Virus record (IMG/VR): IMGVR_UViG_3300046722_000188
Location: 1-31,471 of that record
Length of the DNA: 31,471 nucleotides
Direction: 5' to 3' (one strand)
From: a virus
A program made the position numbers and the translations under genes. Positions 2,774-31,471 of the stretch are shown here, piece by piece (position 1 is the first letter of the stretch; each line of letters opens with the position of its first letter). The notes beneath the pieces were generated by a model, which was not told where the DNA came from, did not search any database, and worked only from the letters and a program-made list of their open reading frames with translations.

Positions 2774-3838
2774 TTATCGCCGGCCCTCTTTGAGCCAGTT
2801 CTGGGATGGGCTCACGCGACCGGACCGTTCGGCGATCGTGGCTGCCGACAGGTGGGTGTAGGTTCGCATCACGTCGACGCTGACCTGGCCCAGGATGGCC
2901 CGCAGCCCGGCCTCATCGCCGGGATACTGAGTCAGGTAGATGGTCGCGAAGGAATGCCGAAAGCGATGGCACTGCGCCTCGGTGACGCCCGCGTGTTGAC
3001 CGAGACGACGGATGGTATCCGCGGCGCCGCTGGTCGACATGCGGAAACCCTGGATCGTGAGAAAGAGTCGGCCGGTTCGGCGGGCGGGGAACCTGGCAAA
3101 GAAGGCTTCCCGCTCACGCAGATAGGCTTTGAGTAAGCGGACCGTCTCGCCACCATCGGCGGCCGTGGGATCACCGAACGGGATCGATCGCTCGCGGTTC
3201 CCTTTGCCGATGACGGTGATTCGGCGCAGGGGTGCATCGAGATGGATGCGGTCGACCTCCAGACTGGTGAGCTCGCCGACGCGGGCGCCGGTGTCGAGCA
3301 GCAGGTGGATCAGCAGGCGGTCGCGCAGGGGCGTCTTCGAGGACGTGGTGGCCTCGAGCAGCGCCAGGACTTCGGTGCGCGTGTAGGGCTGGCGTTCGAT
3401 ATCGCGGACCGCGGGGACAGGCAGGCGCTCGAGAGGGTTACCGCCCAGGATGCCCTCGGCGTAGAGCCAGCCAGCCCAGACCTTCATGGTGACGCCGAAC
3501 ATTTTGACGGCCACGGCACCGCCACGTTTGCCGCGGCCGGCGCGCTGCTGCCAGAGGATGGCCTGGCGGACATTGGCCGGGTTCAGGGCGGCGTAGGTCG
3601 CCGGTATTTTTCGCAGTGCCAGGAAATCGAGGAAGCGTTGTTCGTAGGTCTGGTAGAGGGTGATGGTGCGCGGCGACTTGCCGGCCGTGCCCAGGGCGAG
3701 ACGGTGGTACGTCGAGGCTTGGTCAAGGTCCACAGGGCTGAAACTTCCCCCATTCTGAGATGGTCTGTAGAACTGCTGTTCTACAGATAGGGGGAGGATA
3801 GGGGCTGTAGCAGATGGGTGGTACGTCTGTCGCGTCAC
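2774..3838 (-). CDS. int: tyrosine-family phage integrase
   Basis: A 354-residue tyrosine recombinase that would join attP with the host attB. An N-terminal core-binding domain (about residues 40-130, SPRTITLYQTYEQRFLDFL) is followed by the catalytic domain. Visible catalytic residues are Arg in DTGARVGELT, Lys in VIGKGNRER, His-x-x-Arg in HRFRHSFA and the nucleophile Tyr in MRTYTHLS. At the usual LGH position the protein has LGQ, so the fifth residue (normally His or Trp) is Gln. The annotated GTG start overlaps the repressor stop (GTGA). A second candidate start is GTG 3733 with GGGGGAAG upstream. It would give 319 residues and leave about 100 non-coding bases that hold a strong inverted repeat. 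Co-transcription with the repressor means some integrase is probably made whenever the repressor is. Confidence 0.93.
   Translation of the reverse strand: MTRQTYHPSATAPILPLSVEQQFYRPSQNGGSFSPVDLDQASTYHRLALGTAGKSPRTITLYQTYEQRFLDFLALRKIPATYAALNPANVRQAILWQQRAGRGKRGGAVAVKMFGVTMKVWAGWLYAEGILGGNPLERLPVPAVRDIERQPYTRTEVLALLEATTSSKTPLRDRLLIHLLLDTGARVGELTSLEVDRIHLDAPLRRITVIGKGNRERSIPFGDPTAADGGETVRLLKAYLREREAFFARFPARRTGRLFLTIQGFRMSTSGAADTIRRLGQHAGVTEAQCHRFRHSFATIYLTQYPGDEAGLRAILGQVSVDVMRTYTHLSAATIAERSGRVSPSQNWLKEGRR
3764..3787. repeat. perfect 10-4-10 inverted repeat near the int start
   Basis: TCTGTAGAAC (3764-3773) and GTTCTACAGA (3778-3787) are exact complements around TGCT. Read as 9-bp arms and a 6-bp centre it has the size of a recombinase core site (dif type: 11-6-11). 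As RNA it would be a stable hairpin. It lies in the first 25 codons of the long integrase frame, but just upstream of the alternative GTG start at 3733. Candidate roles are attP core, integrase or excisionase binding site, or translational control of int. Confidence 0.5.
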
Positions 3839-4359
3839 GATTGAGCGGCGACGACCGCTAAAGGTAGAAACAAGCAGTGGACGAGGGTGCTGACCCAGGC
3901 ATAAGCAGGGGTTATGCGCCGTCTGCGGCCGTGCTGGTGTCCTGATAAGCGTGGGACGGGTTGGTTATTCTCAGTCGGCCCGCTACCGTTAGTAGGGGCC
4001 TGGAGCGCTTCGCCCGCGGTAGCCATCGCCTCGATGGCCTCGACCACCGGTTCCCAGATCGAGCGTGGCAGGGTGCTCAGCGTCTGACCAACATCGGTCA
4101 GCCTGATCTCGAGCTCGGTCGCGGGGAGGTCGCTCAGGAGTGGCGCGCCCGGCAGATAGCCGCACATTTTCATCAAGTCCTCGTAGGGGACGCCCAGGGC
4201 AGGGGCCAGTCGCTCGAGGGTCCGCGGGTTTGGCCTGGGCGGGTTCGGGCCAACCAGCCGACTGATCTGGTACGCATGCAATCCGCTGGCTTCGGCCAGA
4301 CGGGCGATCGCGCCTCGCTCGGTCAACCGACTGTCGAGTAACGCGACAAGTTCGTCCAC
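3835..4359 (-). CDS. phage repressor (immunity), HTH type
   Basis: The N-terminus carries a Cro/CI-type helix-turn-helix (about residues 15-58: AIARLAEASGLHAYQISRLV, then RTLERLAPALGVPYEDLMKMCGYLP). There is no LexA-type peptidase domain, so it is not the self-cleaving class. GTG 4359 is chosen as the start because the promoter -10 box ends 6 bases before it, exactly as for the divergent gene, implying a leaderless mRNA. GTG 4377 or ATG 4374 would place the operator and -10 inside the coding region. A disordered, polar stretch (about 115-150) leads to a hydrophobic tail (residues 155-174, ending LAVVAAQS) that may be a degradation signal or membrane-seeking. The gene overlaps integrase by GTGA. 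A palindrome within its 3' end is a candidate crossover site. Confidence 0.85.
   Translation of the reverse strand: MDELVALLDSRLTERGAIARLAEASGLHAYQISRLVGPNPPRPNPRTLERLAPALGVPYEDLMKMCGYLPGAPLLSDLPATELEIRLTDVGQTLSTLPRSIWEPVVEAIEAMATAGEALQAPTNGSGPTENNQPVPRLSGHQHGRRRRITPAYAWVSTLVHCLFLPLAVVAAQS
3899..3917. repeat. dif-like inverted repeat inside the repressor 3' end
   Basis: GCATAA (3899-3904) and TTATGC (3912-3917) flank 7 bases. CATAA...TTATG is also the innermost conserved part of XerCD dif sites. It covers codons ~148-154 of the repressor, just before its hydrophobic tail. If this is the crossover core, integration would replace the last ~20 repressor residues and separate int from it. No tRNA-like sequence is seen around it, so attP identity is unproven. 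Confidence 0.35.
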
Positions 4360-4365
4360 GCGTGC

Positions 4366-4394
4366 AGTGTACATCACTCATGAGTGATCGACAA
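4366..4394 (-). promoter_or_regulatory. repressor promoter, leaderless
   Basis: On the minus strand, TTGTCG (4394-4389), a 17-base spacer and TACACT (4371-4366) form a good sigma-70-type promoter. Six bases later comes GTG 4359, so the mRNA should start at or next to the start codon. No ribosome site is present. The spacer is filled by a perfect 16-base palindrome. Confidence 0.7.
4373..4388. promoter_or_regulatory. operator O1, perfect palindrome
   Basis: ATCACTCATGAGTGAT is a perfect 16-base dyad that fills the spacer of the repressor promoter directly after its -35 box. Protein bound here would block the promoter, so negative autoregulation or Cro repression is expected. Confidence 0.7.
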
Positions 4395-4413
4395 CCGCGA
4401 ATGATTGCAATTG

Positions 4414-4442
4414 TTGACGTTCACTCAGGATTGAACTAAACT
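4414..4442 (+). promoter_or_regulatory. early (Cro-side) promoter, leaderless
   Basis: TTGACG (4414-4419), 17 bases, TAAACT (4437-4442), then 6 bases to ATG 4449. The spacing matches the divergent repressor promoter exactly. There is no Shine-Dalgarno sequence before the ATG, so a leaderless transcript is likely. The two -35 boxes are 19 bases apart. Confidence 0.75.
4420..4435. promoter_or_regulatory. operator O2, imperfect palindrome
   Basis: TTCACTCAGGATTGAA matches O1 at 12 of 16 positions and sits at the same place relative to its promoter (directly after the -35 box). Centre-to-centre distance to O1 is 47 bp. Binding here would block early transcription. The weaker symmetry suggests lower affinity than O1. 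Confidence 0.6.
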
Positions 4443-4448
4443 TCTCAC

Positions 4449-4676
4449 ATGAGCGATACTGACGTGGTGCATCCGATCAAGGCGGCACTCAAGCGCACCT
4501 GGCCGCCGATGAGCCAGGCCAAACTCGCGCGACGACTGGACATCAATACCTCGGTTCTGAGCCTGTACCTGAATGGGCATCGCGAGCCGCCCGATGGTTT
4601 CTACATTGCTGCCGCAGCGATTCTCGGGTGTGAACCGGCGGATCTGCGACCACGAGAAGAGCCGGCCGCAGCATGA
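4449..4676 (+). CDS. Cro-like HTH regulator
   Basis: A 75-residue protein with one helix-turn-helix domain filling most of its length: MSQAKLARRLDINTSVLSLYLNGHREPPDGFYIAAAAILG is typical of the HTH_3/Cro-CI class, with the recognition helix around TSVLSLYLNG. Size, divergent orientation from the repressor and first place in the early operon fit a Cro-type antagonist that favours lytic growth. It is expressed from a promoter whose start point coincides with its ATG, with no ribosome site. Its stop overlaps the next start (ATGA). An excisionase or second-repressor role is less likely given the fold. Confidence 0.8.
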   Translation: MSDTDVVHPIKAALKRTWPPMSQAKLARRLDINTSVLSLYLNGHREPPDGFYIAAAAILGCEPADLRPREEPAAA

Positions 4677-5041
4677 AGGGCGGGTTCAGTCCGTCGGGAC
4701 TTGTCCACTGGCGAGAGGGTGAACCACTCGCGCGCACCGATGAATCGCTGAGTACGGCGCCAGACGCTCGCAATTGGTTCATGACGTTCTCCAACCGACC
4801 GAACGCCACCGTGCATATGGCCGCTGACGGCCACGCACACACTGATTGTGGCATCTGGGCCAACGGAACGAAGCACGACCCGACAACGTTCGGTGACGTC
4901 GCCAGGCGGCTGTGCCCGCAGTGTGTCGAAGCCTGGCGTGTTCTGTTGACGGTGGTCGCCAAACCCAACAGCCGACTGGGGAGCGAGGCCCGCCAGATAG
5001 CGCGACGTTCCCGAGCAAAGGCCCGCGCGCGCCGCAAGTAA
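4673..5041 (+). CDS. hypothetical early protein with possible zinc site, 122 aa
   Basis: The start overlaps the Cro-like stop (ATGA). The protein has a polar N-terminal half. The segment HMAADGHAHTDCGIW, later followed by RLCPQCVEAWRVL, gives His and Cys residues that could bind one zinc. The C-terminus is very basic (ARQIARRSRAKARARRK), suggesting contact with nucleic acid. No family is recognised. As the second early gene it could be a regulator or host-takeover factor, by position only. Confidence 0.6.
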   Translation: MKGGFSPSGLVHWREGEPLARTDESLSTAPDARNWFMTFSNRPNATVHMAADGHAHTDCGIWANGTKHDPTTFGDVARRLCPQCVEAWRVLLTVVAKPNSRLGSEARQIARRSRAKARARRK

Positions 5042-10994: not shown

Positions 10995-11122
10995 ACCTCA
11001 GGTGTCTCGTCCTGGGGCACCGCTGGCGGTTCTGGGTCCGTGCCCCCCAGGAAAGCCATGAGCTCGCCCTCGATCGCTGCGAACGTTGTTCTGCTCTGAA
11101 ACCTCATTGGAGTCGCTCGTGA
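10955..11122 (+). CDS. small Cys/His protein, 55 aa
   Basis: GTG 10955 gives [20 protein letters not shown], then GHRWRFWV and [13 protein letters not shown]. The C...GH...CxxC pattern resembles small phage proteins with a single zinc site. GTG 10991, which overlaps the upstream stop (GTGA), would give a 43-residue form with AGGAG directly adjacent. Either way the Cys/His residues are kept. Its stop overlaps the homing endonuclease start. Confidence 0.5.
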
Positions 11123-11631
11123 GTCAAGGCGATGAGCGCGTCGGGGTCATTCCTCTCAGTCAGGGACTCGTCGCAATGGTCGATATCGAGGATCTGGCAG
11201 CACTAGCTATGCACAAGTGGTCGGCAACAGCAGGACGGCACACCTTCTACGCCGTCCGGACAGTGTTCGTGGATGTCCGTCAGACAATGGTGCGCATGCA
11301 CCGCGTCATCGCAGGAGCGAGGCCTACGGATGTCGTCGATCACATCGACGGCAACGGACTCGACAATCGACGCGCCAATCTACGCATCGTGTCCCATAGT
11401 CAGAACCTTTGGAACGCACCTAGCTACAAGCCAAGTTCGAGTGGTTTCCGTGGTGTATCGCTGATTCGCCGCGGGAAGAAATGGACGGCATGGTGCGCCT
11501 CGATCAGGGACGGAGTAAGGATCCGACACCTCGGGTACTTCGCTACTGCTGAGGAGGCCGCCAGGGCTTACGACACTGCTGCATTACGGATACGTGGCGA
11601 GTTCGCCCGCCTGAATTTTGGAGACCTGTAA
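11119..11631 (+). CDS. HNH-AP2 homing endonuclease
   Basis: GTG 11119 overlaps the previous stop, giving 170 residues. The first ~50 residues ([20 protein letters not shown], then YAVRTV) are the usual lead-in of phage HNH endonucleases. The HNH core follows: [20 protein letters not shown] and then [19 protein letters not shown]. The C-terminal AP2 DNA-binding domain is clear ([20 protein letters not shown], then [20 protein letters not shown]). Such enzymes cut intron- or gene-free target sites and spread by repair. It appears free-standing, without intron features. It probably inserted between two small genes; a 15-codon frame directly after it may be a leftover. Confidence 0.92.
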
Positions 11632-18034: not shown

Positions 18035-21000
18035 ATGCCTGGCACCATCCTCCTCGACGACCTGCGCTCGAGCATCGGCGACGAGCTGCGCTCCCACGCT
18101 CAGGGATTGCTGCAACTCGGCCAGGGCGCCGTCCAGAGCATCAACGATGCGATCCCCCCGCCGCCGCCGGTACCCCAGGGTCCCGACCCCAACCAGATCC
18201 TGCAGGAGCTCCAGCAGCACGCCCAGCAAGCCGCGGCCGCTGCACAACCTGCCGTCCAGGTGCTCGGTGGGGCGCAACAGTCCGCGGGTGACGTGCTGCA
18301 GCAGCTTCAACAGCACGCGTCCAACCTGACCAGCGATGTCGGCCAGCAGTTACAGCAACACGTCAACAGTCTCACCCAGGGCGCGCAGGACGCCGTCCAG
18401 AGTCTGGCCACCCCACCACCGGCGCCACCACCACCAGCGACCACCACGCCATCGCTGGGCGGTCCGCCACCGTCAGACACGGGACCGGCGACCGTCGGTC
18501 AGGGCCAGTCGGCGTTCATCACCAGCCTGCAGGGCATGGCGCAGCGCGCAGCGGCGGCCACGGGCATCGATCCCAACGCCATGCTGGCGATTGCCGCCAA
18601 CGAGACGGGCTGGGGCCAGTCGTCCAACGCCCAGCAGCAGAACAACCTGTTCAGCCTGCAGGGCGACGGCAGCAACGGCTCGAGGTGGGCCAGCTACAAG
18701 AGTCCGCAGGAGTCGTTCGACGCGTTCATCAACCTGGTGCAGACCGCGCCGCGGTACGCCCAGGCGTGGGCCGATCGCGGCAACGCGGCCAAGTTCGTCG
18801 ACGACCTGCGGAACGCGGGCTACGTGGTCGACGAGCCCGGCTATCCCGCGCAGGGCTGGGTCGACCAGGTCAAGTCGATCTACGACCATCTGCCCCCGGC
18901 CGCGCAGGGCGCGGTGAATGCCGTGCAGGGCGCTGGGCAGCAGGTGCTCGGCGCCGCTCGAGGTGCGCTGGACACGGCGTCGACCGCGATGAACCAATCC
19001 CAGTTCGGCGACCCGCAGTTGACGGCCGACGAGGCGTACGCGGCCTGCGGTCCCGCGGCCGCGGTCAGATTCGCCGAACGGTTTGGCCGCAACCCCACGC
19101 TCAGAGAAGCCACCGACCTGGCCAAACAGGTGGGCTGGACGAGCGGCGGCGGCATGGCGGGTATCACCAGCGAACAGCGGCTGCTCAAGAACATGGGCGT
19201 CGACACCCACATCGTGGCGCCGGACTGGGACGCCATCGCCAAGGAAGCGACCACCGGCAACCCGGTGACGATCAGCACGCCCGGCCATTACTTCTTCGCC
19301 GACGGGTACAACCCGCAGACGGGCGCGTTCCACGTGGGACGGTCGGGTCTGGACCTCGTGCATGGCAGCGAGTGGATGACGCCGGCTCAGATGGAGAACC
19401 TGATGGGCCGAGCGCAGGGCGCCCTGTTCGCCGACAACCCCGCGGTGCCGGCATCGAGCACGTCACCCACGGCATTGGGCGGCACCGGTGGCGCATCCAA
19501 CGCCCCGATCACGATCGGTGGGCCAGCCCCCCTGAAGGCGCCGCTGTACGTCAAGGGTGCCATGCAGGACGCCAACGGCAACGTGGTCGCCGACCAGGGA
19601 CCAACCCCGATCCAGTCGGCCGCGGATGTGCTGGGCGGCGCCGCCGGCGCGGTTGGTGAAGCGGTCGGTGGCGCGGCATCGGCACTGGGCTCGGCCGCGC
19701 AGGGTGCGCTCGCTCAGGCCACCGCGCCCGTCCAGCTCCAGCCCGGCCAGGTGTCGGCGCGCGACCAGGTCAACCAGGTGGCCAGTGACGTGCAGCAAGC
19801 CGCGCAGGGCGTGCTGGGCGCGGCACAGGACGTCAACCGGATGACGCCTGGCACATCGGCAGTCAATGCGGTAGCGCCCGTTTTGGGGGCCGCTGCAAGC
19901 GATCTGGGCACCACGGCTCGAGGTGCGGTAGACGCCACCGTTCCCGTGCTCGGTGGTGCGGCCAGTGATCTCGGCACCCAGGCGGAGGCGTTCGCGCGGT
20001 CGCCGGTGGGTCAGCGTCTCTTACAGGCCGCCGCGGAGAATGCCCAGGAGGGGCCGTCGTTGATCCCGGCGGGCACGATGAGCCTGTACCGCGACGTCAT
20101 GCAGGTCAAGAACGATTGGCTCGAGCAGAACAACCCGCTCAACAACCTGCCCGGCGCACGGCCAGAACCAGGCCACGAGGGCGACATCACGCCCGGCGGA
20201 TTGATCGCGGGTCTGACCACGGGCATCGCGCAGCAGTTCACCGACCCGCTGATGCTGGCGTTACTGGGACCGACCAGCGGTGTGGCTGAAGCGGGCACGG
20301 GCGCACTCAGTGGCGCGGTCAGCCGCATCGTCGGACCGCAACTGGCGGAACGTCTGTCGCCCGCCGCGGTATCCGTGCTCGGCACGATCGCCCAGAAGTT
20401 TTCGCAGGGCGCCATTGTCGGCGGGCTGCAGAACGCGATGTTCGAGGCCGAAAAGAAAACGTCCACGCCCGAGTCGGTGGGCCAGGCGCTGGTGGTTGGC
20501 GCCGGTCTGGGCGGCGTGATCGACGTGGGCTCGGTGCCGGTGATGGCGGTCGTGCGGCGCCTGGGCCAGGTGCTGCTTGACAACGCCCCACAGATCAGCG
20601 AAGCGTTGCGCTCGAGGCAACCGGCCCAGGCGCAGGTCGGTGCGGCGCTGGGCCTACCGGCCGGCCAGGACGTGCTGCATGGGCAGGCAGTGCCGCGGCC
20701 AGGGTACGAGCCAGGGACACCCGAGCACACGACCGAGACCTTCCTGCAGGACGCTGCGCGTTCGCAGGGTACGGCCAGGCCACAGATCAGTGGTGCCGAC
20801 GTAGCCGGTCTGCCGGGCATGGCTGGTACCCGGTCCCGTGGTCTGCAGGAGGTCCGCGACGCGGTCGATGCGGGTCTGCCCGCGGCACGGTGGTACCAGC
20901 AGATCGTGCAGCAGGTTCGGCAGGACACCGGCCAGGACATCAACCCGCGTGAAGGGGCCGTGCTGATGGGCGCCTTCGGTGGCAACGCTGGCGTTCAGGC

Positions 21001-24000
21001 GAACTACCACGCCATGCTGAGCGTGTTCGACGCCATGCGCCAGGCGCACCCTGACCTGACCGGCATGGAGAACATGACCGAGGCGCAGGTTCAGGCCACC
21101 CAGGCATTTAAGGATGTCGCGGCGCTGGTGCATGGCGATAGCAGCTACGCCGATGATTCGATGCTGGCGCGCGTCATGCGTGGCTATCGGACGGGCGAGA
21201 TCCCGGTGCCGTCCGGCGCCAAGCTATCGAGTTACACCCAGGATTTTCTCCACGCTCTCAACGAGCAGTACTCGCCCTATTCGACACAGGACGTATGGCA
21301 GGGCCGCTTGTTCGGCGCCAGGCCGGATGTGCAGGGCAATAAGCCGCTGCCGAATGTCTCAGGGAATGATGCCGCGTACAGGACGATGCATGCGCTAACC
21401 AACTGGGTGGCGCGTGAGCGCAACTTGCCTCCAGACCAGGCGCAGGCCGCGGCGTGGACGGTCTTTCGCTCGCTCTACACCGACCCGACGATCGGCCCCG
21501 AGCTCCGCAATGACCGCATCGGCTTGTCGGACGCGATCAAGCAGGGCCAACAGTCGGGCCTGCTCAACCCGCAGTCGCTGGCGACCGGCGGTCTGGCGGA
21601 GGTGACGGCGCCGAGGACCGGCGTGGCGACGTCGTGGACCGACAAGATCAACGACGTTCGCGATCGCATCCGCCAGAACGGCAGCTATAACGCGCCGCCA
21701 CCGGAATCGGCCACCGCCATTAACGAGATGGCGCTGTACCACCCGTCGATTCAGTCTGCAGCGGAGCAGCGGGCCGTGCTCGATCCGGGTGGTTTCCAGT
21801 ACGGCACGGTGGCCGGGCCGAAGGTGGGTGTGAGACGACCGGTTGGCAACGAACCGGCAGCGCGTCTGCGCGACCTGGCACTGGGCGACCAGCCGGTCAT
21901 TCGCGTGCCAGGTGAGCTGGCGGTGGACCCGACCACGGGCAAGATCCCGTGGCTGGCAGTCGAACATGACGTGCAGCAGACCGCCAGTCATGCCTACGTC
22001 ACCGTGCCAGGCATCGGCGATGACGCGGCCCATCTGATCGGGCAACGGCTCGGGGCCGATCGGTTCAACCACGCGGACCCGAACGTGACCAGTGCTGGCG
22101 GTCTGGCGATTGAAGGGCTTTCTCGAGAAGCTCAGGTGCGTTTGGCGGATGCATTCCAGGCGCAAGGACTGCCGGTTATTCGCGAGGTCGCGGGCACAGG
22201 CCTGCGTTTACCGCTCATCGAAGGCAAGCTCGCCGGACTGGGTCGTCAGGTGCAAGATACCCTGAGCAGGGAGTCTGTATCGGGTACAATTACTCCCTAC
22301 ACAGGAGCCTCACATGCCATTAAATCCGCAGGACAAGGCCGAATTGGAGGCACTGGGAATCAGGGGCGAGGCGCCGCCGGATCACTGGGTATACCGACAA
22401 GGAACGGCGTTCGTGGGCAGCAACTCGCACAAGCCGTCTTCCGAGACGCTGCAACCGCGCCCGGCGGCGGAGCCGCCACTCCCGCCAGGGGTGGGCTTCG
22501 AGGCTCCCGAGAGCGAGCCCAGGCCCCAGTCCCCTTCGGTGTAAACCTCGCCGGAGGGGTTGCTGGCGGGTACGCCGGTAACCTGGCAACACCCCAGGAC
22601 GCGTCACCTGAGGAGCGTCTCAGAAACATCGGGCTCGGGGCAACCGCGGGGTTGCTCGGTACGCATCTGATCACCCGCGGTGGTGTGGGTCCCCTCATGG
22701 AACGCGCCGTCGCGGGTGTCGGCCGCGAGGGTGAAGCCGGCTTCCGCGCGCCCGAGACGCGGCCGACCCTCGAGGAACAACTCGCGCGGGCAGCAGACCG
22801 GGGTCCACGGCCAGGCGACAACCTGCTGAGGGCCACCACCGAAGAGCGGCCGCCACCCAGCGAGGAGCCGACCCGCCAGACCGTGCGCGGTGTCGAGTCG
22901 GGCACGCCGCGGAACATCGGCGAGGTCGTCACCAATCCGCATCTGTTGGATGCGGCTGGTCCTGGCGAGACGCCGATGACGATGGACGAGCGACTCGCCC
23001 ACCAGGACACCCTCGAGCAGCGGTACCAGGCCAACCAGGACCGGCTGGCCGCCATCGACGAGCAACTGCGTAATCCTACGCAGAAGCCCGAGCGACCACC
23101 GTGGGGTGCGGGCTACACCAACGACAACCTGGTCGAGATCGCCCAGCAGCACAACCAGAGCGCGTACGACCCGTTGTGGTGGGAGAAGGCCGGCCTGGAT
23201 ACCGGGTCGGGCGAGGTGCGGCTCGACGTCGGCCAGTCGGGTATCCGCGGCACCGGGACGCGCGAGCCCACGCCCACCGAACTGCGCGCGGAACGCAACA
23301 CGCTGGCGCTGGATCAACGCCACATCGAGGCCGCGGGCGAGCAGCAGGCGAATGCGCCGGATGACGCCCAGTTCGCCCGCCGTGGCCAGCGGGCGGCTGA
23401 TCTGCCGTTCGCGGGCGGTGAAGAGAACGCGCCGCACGGGCCGTACGCGACCGAGCAGGCGTCGTCGGGTGCCGGCTCGCTGGCCGAAGACATCGTCACC
23501 CAGAACGGCCGCAAGAGCTACGGCGACCCGCTCAGCGGCGACGGGCTGCGCGAAGCGCCCGGCGAGATCGTGGGTACCAGAGGCGGCGTGACCGGGCGCG
23601 GCATCAGCGACGTCGAAGCGGCCAACGTGCCGCCACCCAGCGAAGCCACTCTCAAGCGGATGCCGAACCTGGACGCGATGCTGAAGGGGGCGATGCCCGA
23701 GGTCAGGGCGCAGATCCAGCGGGCGGCCGAGGACAACCCCGAGCTCTTCGACGCGTACACCCAGGGCAGGATTTCGCATGACTCGCTGGTCAATGACCTG
23801 GCCACCAAAGTGGGCATGACGCGCGAGGAGTGGCTCAAGACGCCTGTCGGCAAGGGTTTCAATCCGCAGGAGATGGTGGCCTTGCAGGCCGCGGCCATCG
23901 ACGCCCAGGCACGGTCCGAGACGATGGCCAGGGATATCGTCGCCAGGGGCGGGGTGGATGCGCTGTCGGACGAGCAGGTCGCGTACGGGCTCAACGAGCT

Positions 24001-26614
24001 CTCCAAGAACACCCAGTTGCTGACGGTGGCCAGGGGTGGGCGCAGTACGGCGGGCCGCACGCTGGAGTCGCTGAAGAATCGGCTGGACGCCACGATGGCG
24101 CGTGGCATCAACGCCAGCAACGAGCGCATCGGTGCCCAGCGCATTGCCGACCAGGCCAAGCGGGCGACGGCTCGCGCAACGCAGCTTCTGGAAAAAACGC
24201 GCGAGATGGATGTCGAGCAGAAGACCGCGGTCGCCACGGCGCGGTCGAACGGGGCGCCGAAGAACATCCTCGATCAGATCGCGGCCGCGTACGACCAGCT
24301 CGATCGCTACAACGCCATGACGCTGCACGAGAAGGCGGACGACTTCAACGCCTTGAAAGCGGCGCGCGAGGCCGCGGCGGCGAAACGTCAGGTAGCGGTG
24401 CGGGAGCCACCCCAGGAATTGCTGAGCGCCTTGCAGGCTGAGCTCGCGGCCGAGCGTAAGAATTTCGCCAACCGCAAGAACACCTGGGAGAACATGGCGT
24501 TCTGGGATAGCAAGGCCAACGAGATCGCGGCTGAGAAACGCAACGCGTTCCGCGGGGGGTTGTACATCGAGCAGTACCGCAAGAGTGCGGACCTGGCCGC
24601 GAAGTCGGCCGAGGCGGACGCCAAACGCGCGTTCGACCTCGAGTCGAAACGTCAGACGCTGCAGTCGCAGCGAGCCAGCAGTGTGCTCGAGGCGATCGGT
24701 GGGGCGAAGCCGTCCAGGGAATTGCTGGCCAGCTACGTCAAGGCCATCACGTCCGACGACCCGCTGGACGCGGGCAAGTTCATCAAGGGCTTGCAGCAGC
24801 AGGGCTGGTGGGGCCGGTCGCAGATCGTGCGTATCGCAGGGTTGCTGTCGTCCACGGTGACGCACATGGCCAATATGGTCGGCAACATCAGCCAGGTGCC
24901 GCTCGAGGTCGCCACGCACGGCATGGTGGTCGGCATCGACTGGGCACGCGCGGCGGCGACCGGTGGTGAGCGTCAGGCGTACATGGCCGAGCTCGGGCCG
25001 ATGCTGGAGGCGTACGGGCCAGGGTTCGCCTCCAGCATGCCCGACGCCCTCAAGATCCTGCAGACGGGCATCTCGCCGGACGACTTGCTCAATCCGAAGA
25101 ACATGCGGGCCGGGCTGCAATCGGGCTCGGCCAAACTCGACGCCGCCGTGGAAATGCCGCTGCGCTTGCTGCAGGCCGAAGACCAGGTGTTCAAGGGTGG
25201 CGCGTTTGCGATGCAGGCGAACCGTGTGGCCACGCGCTACGCGGTCCGCGAAGGGTTCCGCGGCGAGCAGCTCAAGGGACGCACGGCGAACATCGTCAAG
25301 AATTTCGAGGAGTACCCCGAGCTCTACAAGGAAGCGCACGCCGCCATGCTGCGGATGGTCTTCCAGGAACACCGCGACTGGATCCCGTCGCCGCGTGGCG
25401 CCGCGCAGGGGGTCGTGTCGCAGCCGCTGCCGTTCATCAAGACCCCAGCCAATATCACCGCGCAGGGCGGGGGTCTGTCACCGTTCGGGCTGGCCGGCAC
25501 GGTTGCCGCGGTGCGCGCCCGTGGGGCATTGCAGTCTGCCGGCGGCGCAACGTCAGCCCAACTCGGTCGGGCCACCCTGCTGGCCGAGCAGCGATTGGCG
25601 CGCACCGCATTGGGCACCGCCATCGTGGGCATGGGCGTCGGGATGGGCGCTGGCACGTTCTCAGGCGGCAAGAGCATGCTGACGGGTGCGTACGACCCCA
25701 ACGAAGCCAGCACGTACCCGCAGGGGTGGCGCGAGTGGTCGGTGGTCACGCAGGACCCCGTGAGTGGGAACACGTACTACGTGCCCCTGCAGAACTTCGG
25801 CGCCGCCGGCGCGCCATTGGCGATGGCGGCCATCCTGACCGACGCTGGCAAACGTGGGCACAGTCTGCTGGACAAGGACGAGGCCGCTCGAGCGGCGACC
25901 AGCATCGGCCAGTACGTGCTCGACAACACGTTCCTGCAGGGATTGTCCGACACGGTCAACGTGCTGCACGACCCCAGCCGGTACGCCAACAAGTTTCTCG
26001 AGAGTCTTGTGAGCAGCTACGGTCCGTATTCGGCGATGGGCCGCCAGATTCAGCGAGCGTACGGGGTCGCCTCGAGGAATCCGCACGATGGCTTCATGGG
26101 CCTGGTGGAAGCGATGGAGTCGAACTATCCAGGGTTGAGTGGCAACGTGCCCGAGTCGCTGACGGCGATTGGTGAGCCGCGGACGCAGGGCATCTCTGGC
26201 GCCGCGGCGTTTGCGCTGCCAGTCCGGGCCGACATCCTGCGCGACGAGCCCACCCTGAAGGCGTTGCGCGACAACGACGTCCGGATTCCGCCGGCGCCCA
26301 AGGCGGTCAATGTGGGCAATGGCTGGTCGGTCGACCTGACGCCCGAGGAGCAGGACCAGCTGCAGCGGTCGCGCGGCGAGATCATCCGCCAGCAGGTGGC
26401 CGCGGTGATGGGTTCATCGCTGTATAAGGACGGCGACATCAGCGTACGGAACCAGTTGTTGTCGAAGGCGATCAGCAACGCGTCGCAAAACAGCGACGTG
26501 CTGTTTACGCGGACGTTGTCGCGGGCTGATTTGCAGTCCACCACCGCGGGCGGACGCGCGGTCCGTCGTACCGTGCCGACGCCATACACCGTGGCAGGAG
26601 AGGACGCAGCCTGA
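18035..26614 (+). CDS. giant polyvalent virion protein with two wall-hydrolase domains
   Basis: A 2859-residue protein, 27 percent of the window. Residues ~1-150 are Gln/Ala/Pro-rich. Residues ~156-287 form a FlgJ-type glucosaminidase domain (GIDPNAMLAIAANETGWGQS, the Glu being catalytic, then NNLFSLQGDGSNG). Residues ~324-470 form a C39-like cysteine-peptidase domain (Cys338 in YAACGPAAA, His418 in GHYFFADGY). Long helical sections follow, with a conserved-looking domain at ~950-1165, a coiled coil at ~2030-2220, and a C-terminal region (from ~2260: LLSSTVTHMANMVGNISQVP, then PFIKTPANI) typical of large polyvalent phage proteins. It is probably an internal or ejected virion protein that opens the cell wall and guides DNA entry. 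Residues ~1427-1503 are Gly/Arg-rich and coincide with a small gene in another frame. Confidence 0.8.
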   Translation: MPGTILLDDLRSSIGDELRSHAQGLLQLGQGAVQSINDAIPPPPPVPQGPDPNQILQELQQHAQQAAAAAQPAVQVLGGAQQSAGDVLQQLQQHASNLTSDVGQQLQQHVNSLTQGAQDAVQSLATPPPAPPPPATTTPSLGGPPPSDTGPATVGQGQSAFITSLQGMAQRAAAATGIDPNAMLAIAANETGWGQSSNAQQQNNLFSLQGDGSNGSRWASYKSPQESFDAFINLVQTAPRYAQAWADRGNAAKFVDDLRNAGYVVDEPGYPAQGWVDQVKSIYDHLPPAAQGAVNAVQGAGQQVLGAARGALDTASTAMNQSQFGDPQLTADEAYAACGPAAAVRFAERFGRNPTLREATDLAKQVGWTSGGGMAGITSEQRLLKNMGVDTHIVAPDWDAIAKEATTGNPVTISTPGHYFFADGYNPQTGAFHVGRSGLDLVHGSEWMTPAQMENLMGRAQGALFADNPAVPASSTSPTALGGTGGASNAPITIGGPAPLKAPLYVKGAMQDANGNVVADQGPTPIQSAADVLGGAAGAVGEAVGGAASALGSAAQGALAQATAPVQLQPGQVSARDQVNQVASDVQQAAQGVLGAAQDVNRMTPGTSAVNAVAPVLGAAASDLGTTARGAVDATVPVLGGAASDLGTQAEAFARSPVGQRLLQAAAENAQEGPSLIPAGTMSLYRDVMQVKNDWLEQNNPLNNLPGARPEPGHEGDITPGGLIAGLTTGIAQQFTDPLMLALLGPTSGVAEAGTGALSGAVSRIVGPQLAERLSPAAVSVLGTIAQKFSQGAIVGGLQNAMFEAEKKTSTPESVGQALVVGAGLGGVIDVGSVPVMAVVRRLGQVLLDNAPQISEALRSRQPAQAQVGAALGLPAGQDVLHGQAVPRPGYEPGTPEHTTETFLQDAARSQGTARPQISGADVAGLPGMAGTRSRGLQEVRDAVDAGLPAARWYQQIVQQVRQDTGQDINPREGAVLMGAFGGNAGVQANYHAMLSVFDAMRQAHPDLTGMENMTEAQVQATQAFKDVAALVHGDSSYADDSMLARVMRGYRTGEIPVPSGAKLSSYTQDFLHALNEQYSPYSTQDVWQGRLFGARPDVQGNKPLPNVSGNDAAYRTMHALTNWVARERNLPPDQAQAAAWTVFRSLYTDPTIGPELRNDRIGLSDAIKQGQQSGLLNPQSLATGGLAEVTAPRTGVATSWTDKINDVRDRIRQNGSYNAPPPESATAINEMALYHPSIQSAAEQRAVLDPGGFQYGTVAGPKVGVRRPVGNEPAARLRDLALGDQPVIRVPGELAVDPTTGKIPWLAVEHDVQQTASHAYVTVPGIGDDAAHLIGQRLGADRFNHADPNVTSAGGLAIEGLSREAQVRLADAFQAQGLPVIREVAGTGLRLPLIEGKLAGLGRQVQDTLSRESVSGTITPYTGASHAIKSAGQGRIGGTGNQGRGAAGSLGIPTRNGVRGQQLAQAVFRDAATAPGGGAATPARGGLRGSRERAQAPVPFGVNLAGGVAGGYAGNLATPQDASPEERLRNIGLGATAGLLGTHLITRGGVGPLMERAVAGVGREGEAGFRAPETRPTLEEQLARAADRGPRPGDNLLRATTEERPPPSEEPTRQTVRGVESGTPRNIGEVVTNPHLLDAAGPGETPMTMDERLAHQDTLEQRYQANQDRLAAIDEQLRNPTQKPERPPWGAGYTNDNLVEIAQQHNQSAYDPLWWEKAGLDTGSGEVRLDVGQSGIRGTGTREPTPTELRAERNTLALDQRHIEAAGEQQANAPDDAQFARRGQRAADLPFAGGEENAPHGPYATEQASSGAGSLAEDIVTQNGRKSYGDPLSGDGLREAPGEIVGTRGGVTGRGISDVEAANVPPPSEATLKRMPNLDAMLKGAMPEVRAQIQRAAEDNPELFDAYTQGRISHDSLVNDLATKVGMTREEWLKTPVGKGFNPQEMVALQAAAIDAQARSETMARDIVARGGVDALSDEQVAYGLNELSKNTQLLTVARGGRSTAGRTLESLKNRLDATMARGINASNERIGAQRIADQAKRATARATQLLEKTREMDVEQKTAVATARSNGAPKNILDQIAAAYDQLDRYNAMTLHEKADDFNALKAAREAAAAKRQVAVREPPQELLSALQAELAAERKNFANRKNTWENMAFWDSKANEIAAEKRNAFRGGLYIEQYRKSADLAAKSAEADAKRAFDLESKRQTLQSQRASSVLEAIGGAKPSRELLASYVKAITSDDPLDAGKFIKGLQQQGWWGRSQIVRIAGLLSSTVTHMANMVGNISQVPLEVATHGMVVGIDWARAAATGGERQAYMAELGPMLEAYGPGFASSMPDALKILQTGISPDDLLNPKNMRAGLQSGSAKLDAAVEMPLRLLQAEDQVFKGGAFAMQANRVATRYAVREGFRGEQLKGRTANIVKNFEEYPELYKEAHAAMLRMVFQEHRDWIPSPRGAAQGVVSQPLPFIKTPANITAQGGGLSPFGLAGTVAAVRARGALQSAGGATSAQLGRATLLAEQRLARTALGTAIVGMGVGMGAGTFSGGKSMLTGAYDPNEASTYPQGWREWSVVTQDPVSGNTYYVPLQNFGAAGAPLAMAAILTDAGKRGHSLLDKDEAARAATSIGQYVLDNTFLQGLSDTVNVLHDPSRYANKFLESLVSSYGPYSAMGRQIQRAYGVASRNPHDGFMGLVEAMESNYPGLSGNVPESLTAIGEPRTQGISGAAAFALPVRADILRDEPTLKALRDNDVRIPPAPKAVNVGNGWSVDLTPEEQDQLQRSRGEIIRQQVAAVMGSSLYKDGDISVRNQLLSKAISNASQNSDVLFTRTLSRADLQSTTAGGRAVRRTVPTPYTVAGEDAA
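22285..22307 (+). promoter_or_regulatory. -10 box and ribosome site of the nested gene
   Basis: TACAAT (22285-22290) is a near-consensus -10 box in GC-rich coding DNA, and AGGAG (22303-22307) lies 6 bases before ATG 22314. The -35 region is poor. A transcript would start about 22297. Together they suggest that the internal frame is independently expressed. Confidence 0.4.
22314..22544 (+). CDS. nested small gene in the giant gene's other frame, 76 aa
   Basis: The frame begins MPLNPQDKAELEALGIRGEA and continues with DHWVYRQGTAFVGSNSHKPS and a Pro/Glu-rich tail. It has a proper ribosome site and a -10-like box. Over this stretch its third codon positions are clearly more GC-rich than those of the giant frame, while the giant frame reads Gly/Arg/Ala-rich low complexity, as expected for a non-coding frame. 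So this small frame may be the older gene, with the giant protein reading through it after a fusion. Another option is true overprinting. Its function is unknown. Confidence 0.5.
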   Translation: MPLNPQDKAELEALGIRGEAPPDHWVYRQGTAFVGSNSHKPSSETLQPRPAAEPPLPPGVGFEAPESEPRPQSPSV

Positions 26615-29785: not shown

Positions 29786-29920
29786 ATGCCGCTGAAGAAG
29801 AGCGCCAGTAAAGCAGCCTTCAAGGCCAACGTCCGCGAGATGGTCAAGTCCGGCCGCCCCGTCAAGCAAGCGGTTGCAGCCGCGTATTCGACGCAGCGTG
29901 CGGCGAAGGGCAAGAAGTAA
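29786..29920 (+). CDS. small basic protein, DUF6496-like, 44 aa
   Basis: The protein MPLKKSASKAAFKANVREMV continues KSGRPVKQAVAAAYSTQRAA and ends with Lys. It matches a very common phage small-protein pattern (MPLKKG...NIREMI.AG.P.KQAVAAAL), usually seen near structural genes. It is strongly basic and helical and may bind DNA or an acidic virion protein; its function is not established. Its TAA stop overlaps the next start (TAATG). Confidence 0.7.
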   Translation: MPLKKSASKAAFKANVREMVKSGRPVKQAVAAAYSTQRAAKGKK

Positions 29921-30807
29921 TGCCAGGCGACTGGGACCGCAACGTCCACCCCGACCTGGTCGATGACGAGGAGAGCTCGTCGTCCGAGCCGTCGGCGCCC
30001 CGCCCTCGCGGTCGCGGGCGTGCCAACTCTGACGCGGCCCTCCCCGCGACGGCGGGCGAGGCGGTGTCGGAAGAGCCTGTCACTGAGTCAGGTTCCGACG
30101 GCACTGCCGAGCCCGACCCGGCGACACCCGACCTCGCCTGGTTCGACCAGGTCAGAGACGCCAAGGACCCCGTCGAAGCCCTGCGGCTGATCACCAAGAA
30201 CCTGCCGCGGGACCAACTCGAGAAAGACGAGGTCATGTCCGGCGTCATCGGCGCGCGTGCCGAACGCCGGTTCAACGAGATCAAGGCTCAGCAAGAGCGC
30301 GCGGCGCAGGAGCGAGCCAAGCTGGAAGCCGCCGCCAACAACGACCTGTACACCCTGGGCGAAATGACTCAGCGCGAGCTGCAAGGGCAGCTCGCGTCGC
30401 AGCAGGCCGCCCAGGCCGCCGGGCCGTTCATGGACGGCATCGTCCAATTCCAGCGCACCCTGCCCGAAGCGATCCAGAAGAAGATCGCCGGGAAAACCTT
30501 CGGGGCAGGCAAGGGCTATGCCGAGGGCGTGGCAGAATACGTGGCAGCCATCGTCGACGAGGCAGTGGAGCTCGGCGTCAGTAAGCGCGAGTCCGCACTG
30601 AGGAAATCGGTGATGAGCGAGATAAACGGTGACGAGCCTGTCCCTGAGCGCGACTCTGGTACCCCCGGTCGCGTCCGAGAAGTGACAGACGAAATGATCG
30701 CCGCCATGACGTTACGCGAATACGAGGCGCTGTTCGACGAGAACGGTAAGCCAAAGCCAGGGGTACGCCATCGGTCAACCCGCGGCATCCCCGTTCGTCA
30801 ACATTAG
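29920..30807 (+). CDS. scaffold-like protein, 295 aa
   Basis: The N-terminal ~70 residues are acidic, Ser/Glu/Pro-rich and disordered (DDEESSSSEPSAP). A helical middle (ALRLITKNLPRDQLEKDEVM, then a long helix RRFNEIKAQQERAAQERAKL) and a C-terminal basic tail (KPGVRHRSTRGIPVRQH) follow. Acidic disorder, a long coiled helix and a basic C-terminus that can bind capsid protein are typical of phage scaffolding proteins. It sits where a scaffold is expected, directly before the capsid-position gene. No peptidase motif is seen. ATG 29920 overlaps the previous stop. The call rests on position and architecture. Confidence 0.6.
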   Translation: MPGDWDRNVHPDLVDDEESSSSEPSAPRPRGRGRANSDAALPATAGEAVSEEPVTESGSDGTAEPDPATPDLAWFDQVRDAKDPVEALRLITKNLPRDQLEKDEVMSGVIGARAERRFNEIKAQQERAAQERAKLEAAANNDLYTLGEMTQRELQGQLASQQAAQAAGPFMDGIVQFQRTLPEAIQKKIAGKTFGAGKGYAEGVAEYVAAIVDEAVELGVSKRESALRKSVMSEINGDEPVPERDSGTPGRVREVTDEMIAAMTLREYEALFDENGKPKPGVRHRSTRGIPVRQH

Positions 30808-30828
30808 GGGGTCATTCAAGACAACCAC

Positions 30829-30843
30829 ATGGCAACCGGTGCT
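30829..30843 (+). CDS. first exon (MATGA) of the capsid-position gene
   Basis: ATG GCA ACC GGT GCT then meets an in-frame TAG that belongs to the intron. The five codons start a gene placed right after the scaffold-like gene, where the major capsid gene is expected. AGGGGG (30806-30811) lies 17 bases upstream as a distant ribosome site. The last six bases pair with the intron guide. Exon 2 lies beyond the window, so the capsid identity is inference. Confidence 0.5.
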
Positions 30844-31471
30844 TAGTACGGTATAGGCACCTAACGCAGCTCAAATGCGGGGAAGCCCTAAGAGCCTTCG
30901 AGCCTGATTAGGGAAGAGTGCGAAGGATGGACCAATGGGTAATCCGCAGGCGAAAGTTTCAGATATCGAGTACGGCTGGTTAGCCGGGTTCTTTGACGGT
31001 GAGGGTTCTGTGGTACTGACGATTCGTTCCAGCGCAGGCAAGAACGGTGGACCCAAGGTCCAGCCGATGGCGCTGCTCGCTGGGACAGATCAGGCAGCAC
31101 TGGATGCCATCACGAGTATTCTCGATCGCGAGCAGATTGGGCATTGGGTGGGCTGGGGTATTCCGAAGGGAACAGCCCGAAATGGAAACGCCTACAAACG
31201 TGCCTGGGCTGTTCGTCTCGTGGGACTCAAACGAACCCAACGTTTCGTCGAATGGATCTTGCCCGCGCTGCAGACAAAGCGCGAGCGGGCCGAGTTGGTG
31301 CTGCAGTACATCGCAGCGCGTTTGGCTCATAGCGACTTCCGCACGCCGATTCAGCCCGAAGAATGGGCGATGGCGATGCAGATGAAATTGCTCAACAGCA
31401 AGACCCAGCCGTTTACTCGAGAAGTCACCTTGAACACCGAACCAGCCGGGCTCACTTCAGAAGAGGCTCGG
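30844..31471 (+). ncRNA. group I self-splicing intron (5' part)
   Basis: P1: exon bases GGTGCT (30838-30843) pair with GGCACC (30856-30861), the last pair being the required U-G wobble at the 5' splice site. P4: TGCGG (30876-30880, in an AAATGCGGGGAAG element of P type) pairs with CCGCA (30944-30948, in GGTAATCCGCAG, a Q-type element). CCCTAA (30886-30891) and TTAGGG (30908-30913) can form a further stem between them. The R and S elements and the 3' splice site should lie after the endonuclease, outside the window. The intron opens with an in-frame TAG, so splicing is needed to make the protein. Confidence 0.75.
30935..31471 (+). CDS. LAGLIDADG homing endonuclease (partial, in intron)
   Basis: ATG 30935 has AAGGA about 8 bases upstream, and the frame stays open to the window end (179 codons). 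Residues 14-25 (GWLAGFFDGEGS) are a textbook LAGLIDADG helix with the acidic metal-binding end. Further family-like parts are LVGLKRTQRFVEWILPAL and PEEWAMAMQMKLL. One motif is visible so far, so it would act as a homodimer unless a second motif follows. It would cut intron-less copies of the host gene so that the intron spreads. Its first five codons (MGNPQ) overlap the Q element of the intron core, so the same bases serve both RNA folding and translation. Its third-position GC looks lower than that of the virion genes, as for a recent insert. Confidence 0.93.
   Translation, partial: MGNPQAKVSDIEYGWLAGFFDGEGSVVLTIRSSAGKNGGPKVQPMALLAGTDQAALDAITSILDREQIGHWVGWGIPKGTARNGNAYKRAWAVRLVGLKRTQRFVEWILPALQTKRERAELVLQYIAARLAHSDFRTPIQPEEWAMAMQMKLLNSKTQPFTREVTLNTEPAGLTSEEAR

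Follow-up and report, generated by a model that had tools for sequence, protein, structure and literature searches.

Mycobacteriophage LittleE carries a group I intron of approximately 0.82 kb within its major capsid gene, the splicing of which has been proven by a combination of RT-PCR and protein sequencing (PMC3706429). Lactococcal phage Tuc2009 is cited in the same report as having a group I intron in its capsid gene, and it is from this citation that its likeness to the locus described here, a group I intron in a phage capsid gene, is taken (PMC3706429). Phage introns mostly encode endonucleases of the GIY-YIG or HNH type, LAGLIDADG enzymes being uncommon (PMC3984707, PMC11878797), and in bacterial and phage group I introns stop codons in frame and continuous with the upstream exon are common (PMC3984707). 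The td, nrdB and nrdD introns of phage T4 are likewise group I introns within phage coding genes. Phage introns, those of T4 included, typically home with co-conversion.

Here we describe a putative mobile group I intron that appears to interrupt the major capsid gene of an environmental phage after its fifth codon, a reading to which we assign a probability of about 95 % from sequence comparison. Like this codon-5 intron, that of LittleE has a U at the end of exon 1, a terminal G and a LAGLIDADG protein related to I-CreI, whereas its ORF lies on the opposite strand, its exon 1 is long and its insertion site falls past the cleaved delta domain (PMC3706429); here intron and ORF share a strand, the ORF being embedded in the core between the Q element and the P8 loop, and insertion is after codon 5. 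With LittleE as precedent, LAGLIDADG introns of capsid genes are already known as a kind. The unusual points of the present locus are its 15-nt exon 1, an ORF that runs through both halves of the ribozyme core, and two other introns in the same gene.

The intron lies at the right end of the linear IMG/VR virus record IMGVR_UViG_3300046722_000188, the whole 31,471 nt of which form the window analysed. This end cuts both intron and capsid gene, leaving only the first 628 nt of the intron (30844-31471, + strand), which are 99.7 % identical over their length to the complete intron of contig L003 (positions 4165-4930). Relatives were collected from IMG/VR using the intron ORF and the gene preceding the capsid gene as queries, and all sequences are metagenomic. 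The same intron was present in 10 other contigs, seven of which contain both ends (761-766 nt; 766 in L003, 765 in L006, 761 in L008), and many intron-less (empty) contigs were also recovered, dozens with an uninterrupted capsid reading. The introns of L003, L004 and L005 are identical and may represent one virus assembled repeatedly, so that independent carrier alleles number only about five. Judging from the general character of the samples in the collection, the phage probably came from soil. A tyrosine recombinase gene (2774-3838, - strand; Phage_integrase, E 3e-24) suggests that it may be temperate; relatives of the capsid protein were nonetheless absent from a scan of 84,980 bacterial and archaeal genomes, and no relatives of the intron enzyme were found in bacterial genomes. 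Elsewhere the window encodes what is probably a free-standing homing endonuclease of the HNH type that also has an AP2 DNA-binding domain (11086-11631; Pfam HNH_3 E 2e-7, AP2 E 7e-8). It further contains a single ORF of 2859 codons (18035-26614) whose product has a glucosaminidase domain close to the N terminus and is probably a large protein that is either part of the virion or ejected.

Exons, predicted splice sites and the interrupted capsid gene

Exon 1 consists of the 15 nt ATG GCA ACC GGT GCT (30829-30843, + strand), encoding MATGA, as had been proposed from the window alone (an ATG and four codons followed by an intron). A probable Shine-Dalgarno sequence, GGGGG (30807-30811, + strand), lies 17 nt 5′ of the ATG. 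The preceding gene (29920-30807, + strand; 295 aa) has no Pfam or PHROG match, is assigned to the scaffold position by location only, and served to find the empty alleles. In L003 exon 2 begins ACC GAA TTC GTA GAT, and joining exon 1 in frame to the exon 2 of relatives gives MATGATEFVDK, as in the empty alleles. The joined product reads MATGATEFVDKTISDGVFSPDIW, and the same protein is present uninterrupted in the empty contigs L018, L022 and L030, with a single I for V in L030. At the nucleotide level the spliced junction would be ATGGCAACCGGTGCTACCGAATTC (GGTGCT/ACCGAA in L003), and the empty site of the L018 type is ATGGCCACCGGTGCC ACTGAG. The product of exon 2 matches both the major head protein of PHROG 267 (E 6.2e-26) and Pfam Phage_capsid_2 (PF19821, E 3.5e-8), and with empty relatives reading straight through, the original prediction that the interrupted gene is the major capsid gene is borne out.

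The first bases of the intron form an in-frame TAG (30844-30846, + strand; TAA in L008) and unspliced mRNA should thus yield only a 5-residue peptide, terminating translation at the intron. The predicted P1 helix, with a U.G pair at the junction, was recovered in full: its 5′ strand GGUGCU(UA) (30838-30845, + strand), in which the U of the U.G pair is the last base before the 5′ splice site, pairs with a 3′ strand containing the internal guide sequence, UAGGCACC (30854-30861, + strand). All eight pairs form in every complete carrier and the hairpin has a calculated energy of -10.7 kcal/mol in L003. The intron ends in AACAACAGG or AACACAAGG, with a terminal G followed by the ACC of exon 2. The last six bases of exon 1, GGTGCT, are found in all carriers but in only one of 46 distinct empty alleles, as would be expected if a match to the guide sequence is required or if these bases move together with the intron. 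In L008 the intron occupies the identical site next to a scaffold-position gene of only 36 % identity. By the proposed mechanism the guide sequence would hold the last six bases of exon 1 in P1, guanosine would attack immediately 3′ of the U in the U.G pair, exon 1 would in turn attack 3′ of the terminal G, and exon 2 (ACC GAA...) would be joined in frame to produce the full-length capsid protein.

The endonuclease ORF begins with an ATG of its own, and AAGGA, some 7 nt ahead of this ATG, is a plausible ribosome site, as might be seen if the ORF were a free-standing gene placed before a capsid gene that used its own downstream start, without any splicing. However, this arrangement calls for an entire, separately started capsid gene downstream of the endonuclease, and none is present. 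A TAA 12 nt upstream closes the exon 2 frame, which has no ATG or GTG before codon 35, itself a TTG, and yet codons 6-34 are conserved as protein while the DNA diverges (77-80 % identity between L003 and L006). The MATGA codons are moreover kept in all carriers and the ribozyme core covaries, and we therefore give a free-standing gene almost no credence.

Ribozyme core and LAGLIDADG endonuclease

All nine helices expected of a group I intron were found, including the P3/P7 pseudoknot. Those strands present within the window (all + strand) are the P3 5′ strand CGCAGC (30865-30870), which pairs with GCUGCG at L003:4858-4863 and shows three double changes relative to intron 2 (see below); the P4 5′ strand or P element UGCGG (30876-30880); the P5 5′ strand CCC (30886-30888); the P5a hairpin (30895-30926; CCUUCG at 30895-30900 with CGAAGG at 30921-30926), with two double changes; the P5 3′ strand GGG (30937-30939), within the first codons of the endonuclease ORF; and the P4 3′ strand CCGCA, or Q element, together with the P6 5′ strand GGC (30944-30951). 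The P and Q elements noted in the original prediction do pair as P4 (TGCGG at 30876-30880 with CCGCA at 30944-30948). P4, P5 and P6 are identified by pairing and by the covariation alignment, and the P and Q strands also by alignment to RF00028. Extending the sequence rightward through the relatives located P7, the terminal G and an exon 2 that continues the capsid protein, all within 766 nt, the R and S elements, sought within about 1 kb, lying some 0.7 kb downstream. In L003 these distal elements are P6′ GCC (4842-4844), R with the P7 5′ strand GACCC (4850-4854), P3′ (given above), P8 UUGCCCA/UGGGCAA (4865-4884), S with the P7 3′ strand GAGUC (4893-4897) and P9 CUUACAU/GUGUAAG (4902-4919).

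We aligned three alleles of the codon-5 intron with two of the homologous intron 2 to measure covariation. Of the cells in the named structure, which comprises 50 pairs, 89.4 % were paired; 17 pairs had changes on both sides, and none of 500 shuffles attained the covariation score. Slid structures were only 32-48 % paired, a comparison that favours the named structure since it was derived from L003; the double changes in P3, P4, P5a, P7, P8 and P9 are independent of this. Covariation with intron 2 together with exact empty sites in relatives excludes a chance resemblance. In the codon-5 intron P7 forms four of its five pairs, with a constant C.A at position 4, while intron 2 forms all five. 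Rfam gave no match in the window at the curated cut-off, nor any in the last 772 nt when E values as high as 10 were allowed. On the complete intron, RF00028 (Intron_gpI) aligned co-linearly to both halves of the intron at E 1.2 and 2, with 13.3 and 12.6 bits against a 50-bit cut-off; one strong match is not expected because the 0.55-kb ORF in P6 splits the core. Searching the relatives in bulk with Rfam returned only chance matches to unrelated families, whereas narrower stretches gave group I matches. A DNA pattern for the core, CTNAYGCAGCTCAAANTGCNGG, was tried on viral contigs and set aside, as it returned six unrelated coding matches and one true carrier.

The endonuclease ORF sits in the P6 loop, and the window holds the first 179 of its 206 codons (30935-31471, + strand), including the motif LAGFFDGEG. 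As foreseen, the frame overlaps Q, its ATG at 30935 opening the series ATG GGT AAT CCG CAG that is the Q element itself. The complete ORF, as found in relatives, encodes 206 aa with a single motif, spans R and P3′ and has its stop in the P8 loop, so that its last residues are translated ribozyme core. Pfam LAGLIDADG models gave E values of 0.02-0.05 only, below the cut-off. The protein matches PHROG 5046 (E 7.8e-12), its profile matches include I-OnuI-type, I-CvuI and I-CreI chains, and a tblastn search of phage genomes returned Lacusarx as the sole match. The acidic residues D21 and E23 are invariant among 19 aligned sequences. An AlphaFold model has the order alpha-beta-beta-alpha-beta-beta-alpha and a Foldseek search with it returned I-CreI and its variants at E ~1e-7 (6.6e-8 to I-CreI variants), with a TM-score to target of about 0.7; the enzyme is probably an I-CreI-like homodimer. 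The two share the single motif and the predicted fold at an identity of approximately 18 %, and the phage enzyme differs in having some 50 additional C-terminal residues, modelled with very low confidence, which correspond to the translated ribozyme core. The host element of I-CreI is a chloroplast rRNA intron and that of the present enzyme a phage capsid intron. All three of the intron enzymes in this capsid gene (L003:4256-4873, L131:2501-3025 and L135:2501-3013) match PHROG 5046, which is labelled ‘HNH endonuclease’. This label looks wrong, since the LAGLIDADG motif is present in all three and the first is modelled as I-CreI-like.

Between alleles of the codon-5 intron the enzyme has a dN/dS of 0.09-0.16, indicative of purifying selection and hence of an enzyme kept functional. 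This bears on whether the intron could be a decayed relic, with core and enzyme surviving in defective or mis-assembled genomes, as the mismatch in P7 and the sub-threshold Rfam scores might suggest. The enzyme is however intact and under purifying selection in all lineages, the same intact junction recurs on independent contigs with diverged flanks (scaffold genes 36-99 % identical to that of the window), and a capsid gene left unspliced would be lethal; decay is accordingly a highly improbable explanation.

Probable homing, co-conversion and further introns in the same gene

The LAGLIDADG endonuclease would be expected to cut intron-less capsid genes at the insertion site, with repair from the intron allele copying the intron and short stretches of flanking exon. 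A pseudo-palindrome seen by eye around this site was too weak to be considered. Comparison of the exon 2 sequences of L003 and L010 gives 48 differences in nt 121-300 but none in nt 1-120 (Fisher p 1.4e-12). Exact agreement between the two contigs covers 131 nt from the start of exon 2 and, on the other side of the intron, the 123 nt that lead up to the splice site. Downstream of nt 120 of exon 2 their identity falls to 72-77 %. Over nt 120-360 L003 instead resembles the empty contigs L018, L023 and L034 (87-98 %, mostly 90-98 %), and past the conversion boundary L010 resembles the empty L022 at 90-95 %. Gene conversion initiated by a cut at the insertion site leaves just such a footprint, with identity limited to the intron and approximately 120 nt to either side.

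It is also conceivable that the intron splices and is now immobile, its distribution reflecting descent and ordinary recombination of capsid genes. Phages recombine in any case, and upstream of the gene L004 has the look of a simple recombinant with L003: the two are the same across intron and capsid gene but are only 78 % identical 600-900 nt upstream (L004 upstream of 2220), with the edge of recombination falling inside the scaffold-position gene. Such exchange does not predict identity that is confined to the intron and its ~120-nt flanks and drops on both sides, as gene conversion does, and the constraint on the enzyme persists, making present immobility unlikely. We infer both splicing and DNA cleavage from these sequence comparisons, and the prediction of a group I intron with a homing enzyme now draws on a covarying core, exact empty sites, a LAGLIDADG enzyme and tracts of co-conversion.

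We identified two further introns in the same capsid gene. Intron 2 (655 nt; e.g. L131:2409-3063) is found in four contigs (L131-L134) after codon 20 (TTC AGC CCT/GAT). Its core and enzyme are homologous to those of the codon-5 intron and its guide sequence, GGGGCUG, fits its own site; the LAGLIDADG ORF ends in a TAG belonging to the S strand of P7. The enzyme of intron 3 occurs in 14 contigs (L135-L148), 13 of which contain both intron ends (767-777 nt; e.g. L135:2382-3148), with the insertion site within codon 88 (ACC CT/C AAC) and the LAGLIDADG ORF in P5 rather than P6. It is a different group I intron, with a better Rfam score than the codon-5 intron (19.6 bits, E 0.018), and has classical R (UUCAGAGACUA) and S (GAUAGUCC) elements. 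The enzyme of the codon-5 intron shares 22-28 % identity with those of introns 2 and 3. The peptide GNPQ represents the Q element in the same reading frame, at the N terminus in the codon-5 intron and near the C terminus in intron 3. No allele among those checked contained two introns.

Leader spacing and possible consequences for capsid expression

In the three distinct upstream sequences of the codon-5 intron (window 30807-30831, L006 and L008) the spacing between ribosome site and start, measured from the last AGG, GGA or GGG to the start codon, is 17-19 nt; in 41 distinct alleles that lack the intron it is 5-11 nt. As the carriers are related through the intron, the long spacing may represent one founder event spread by co-conversion. 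Alternatively it could be selected, since the 5′ splice site is within reach of the initiating ribosome. A possible if doubtful role for the intron would be as a gate on capsid synthesis, imposing splicing before translation. With the 5′ splice site at +15, the edge of the initiating ribosome, the P1 hairpin (+10 to +33) and the ribosome would be mutually exclusive, a spacing of 17-19 nt would make initiation weaker and leave P1 time for folding, and the altered leader would travel with the intron within the co-converted cassette. Two candidate observations were discarded: a 3-bp hairpin between ribosome site and start that would restore the spacing (GUC..GAC in L003 and L006, UGC..GCA in L008) is expected by chance in stretches of 17 nt, and the start region is predicted to differ only modestly in accessibility once the RNA is spliced.

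Few phage genes are expressed as heavily as the capsid gene, and an intron within it must therefore splice very efficiently. Located 15 nt past the start codon, the codon-5 intron places splicing and translation initiation on the same bases, and gene callers will overlook the start of such capsid genes. Three LAGLIDADG introns at three sites in one gene, with dozens of empty alleles and visible edges of gene conversion, constitute a natural experiment in environmental phages.
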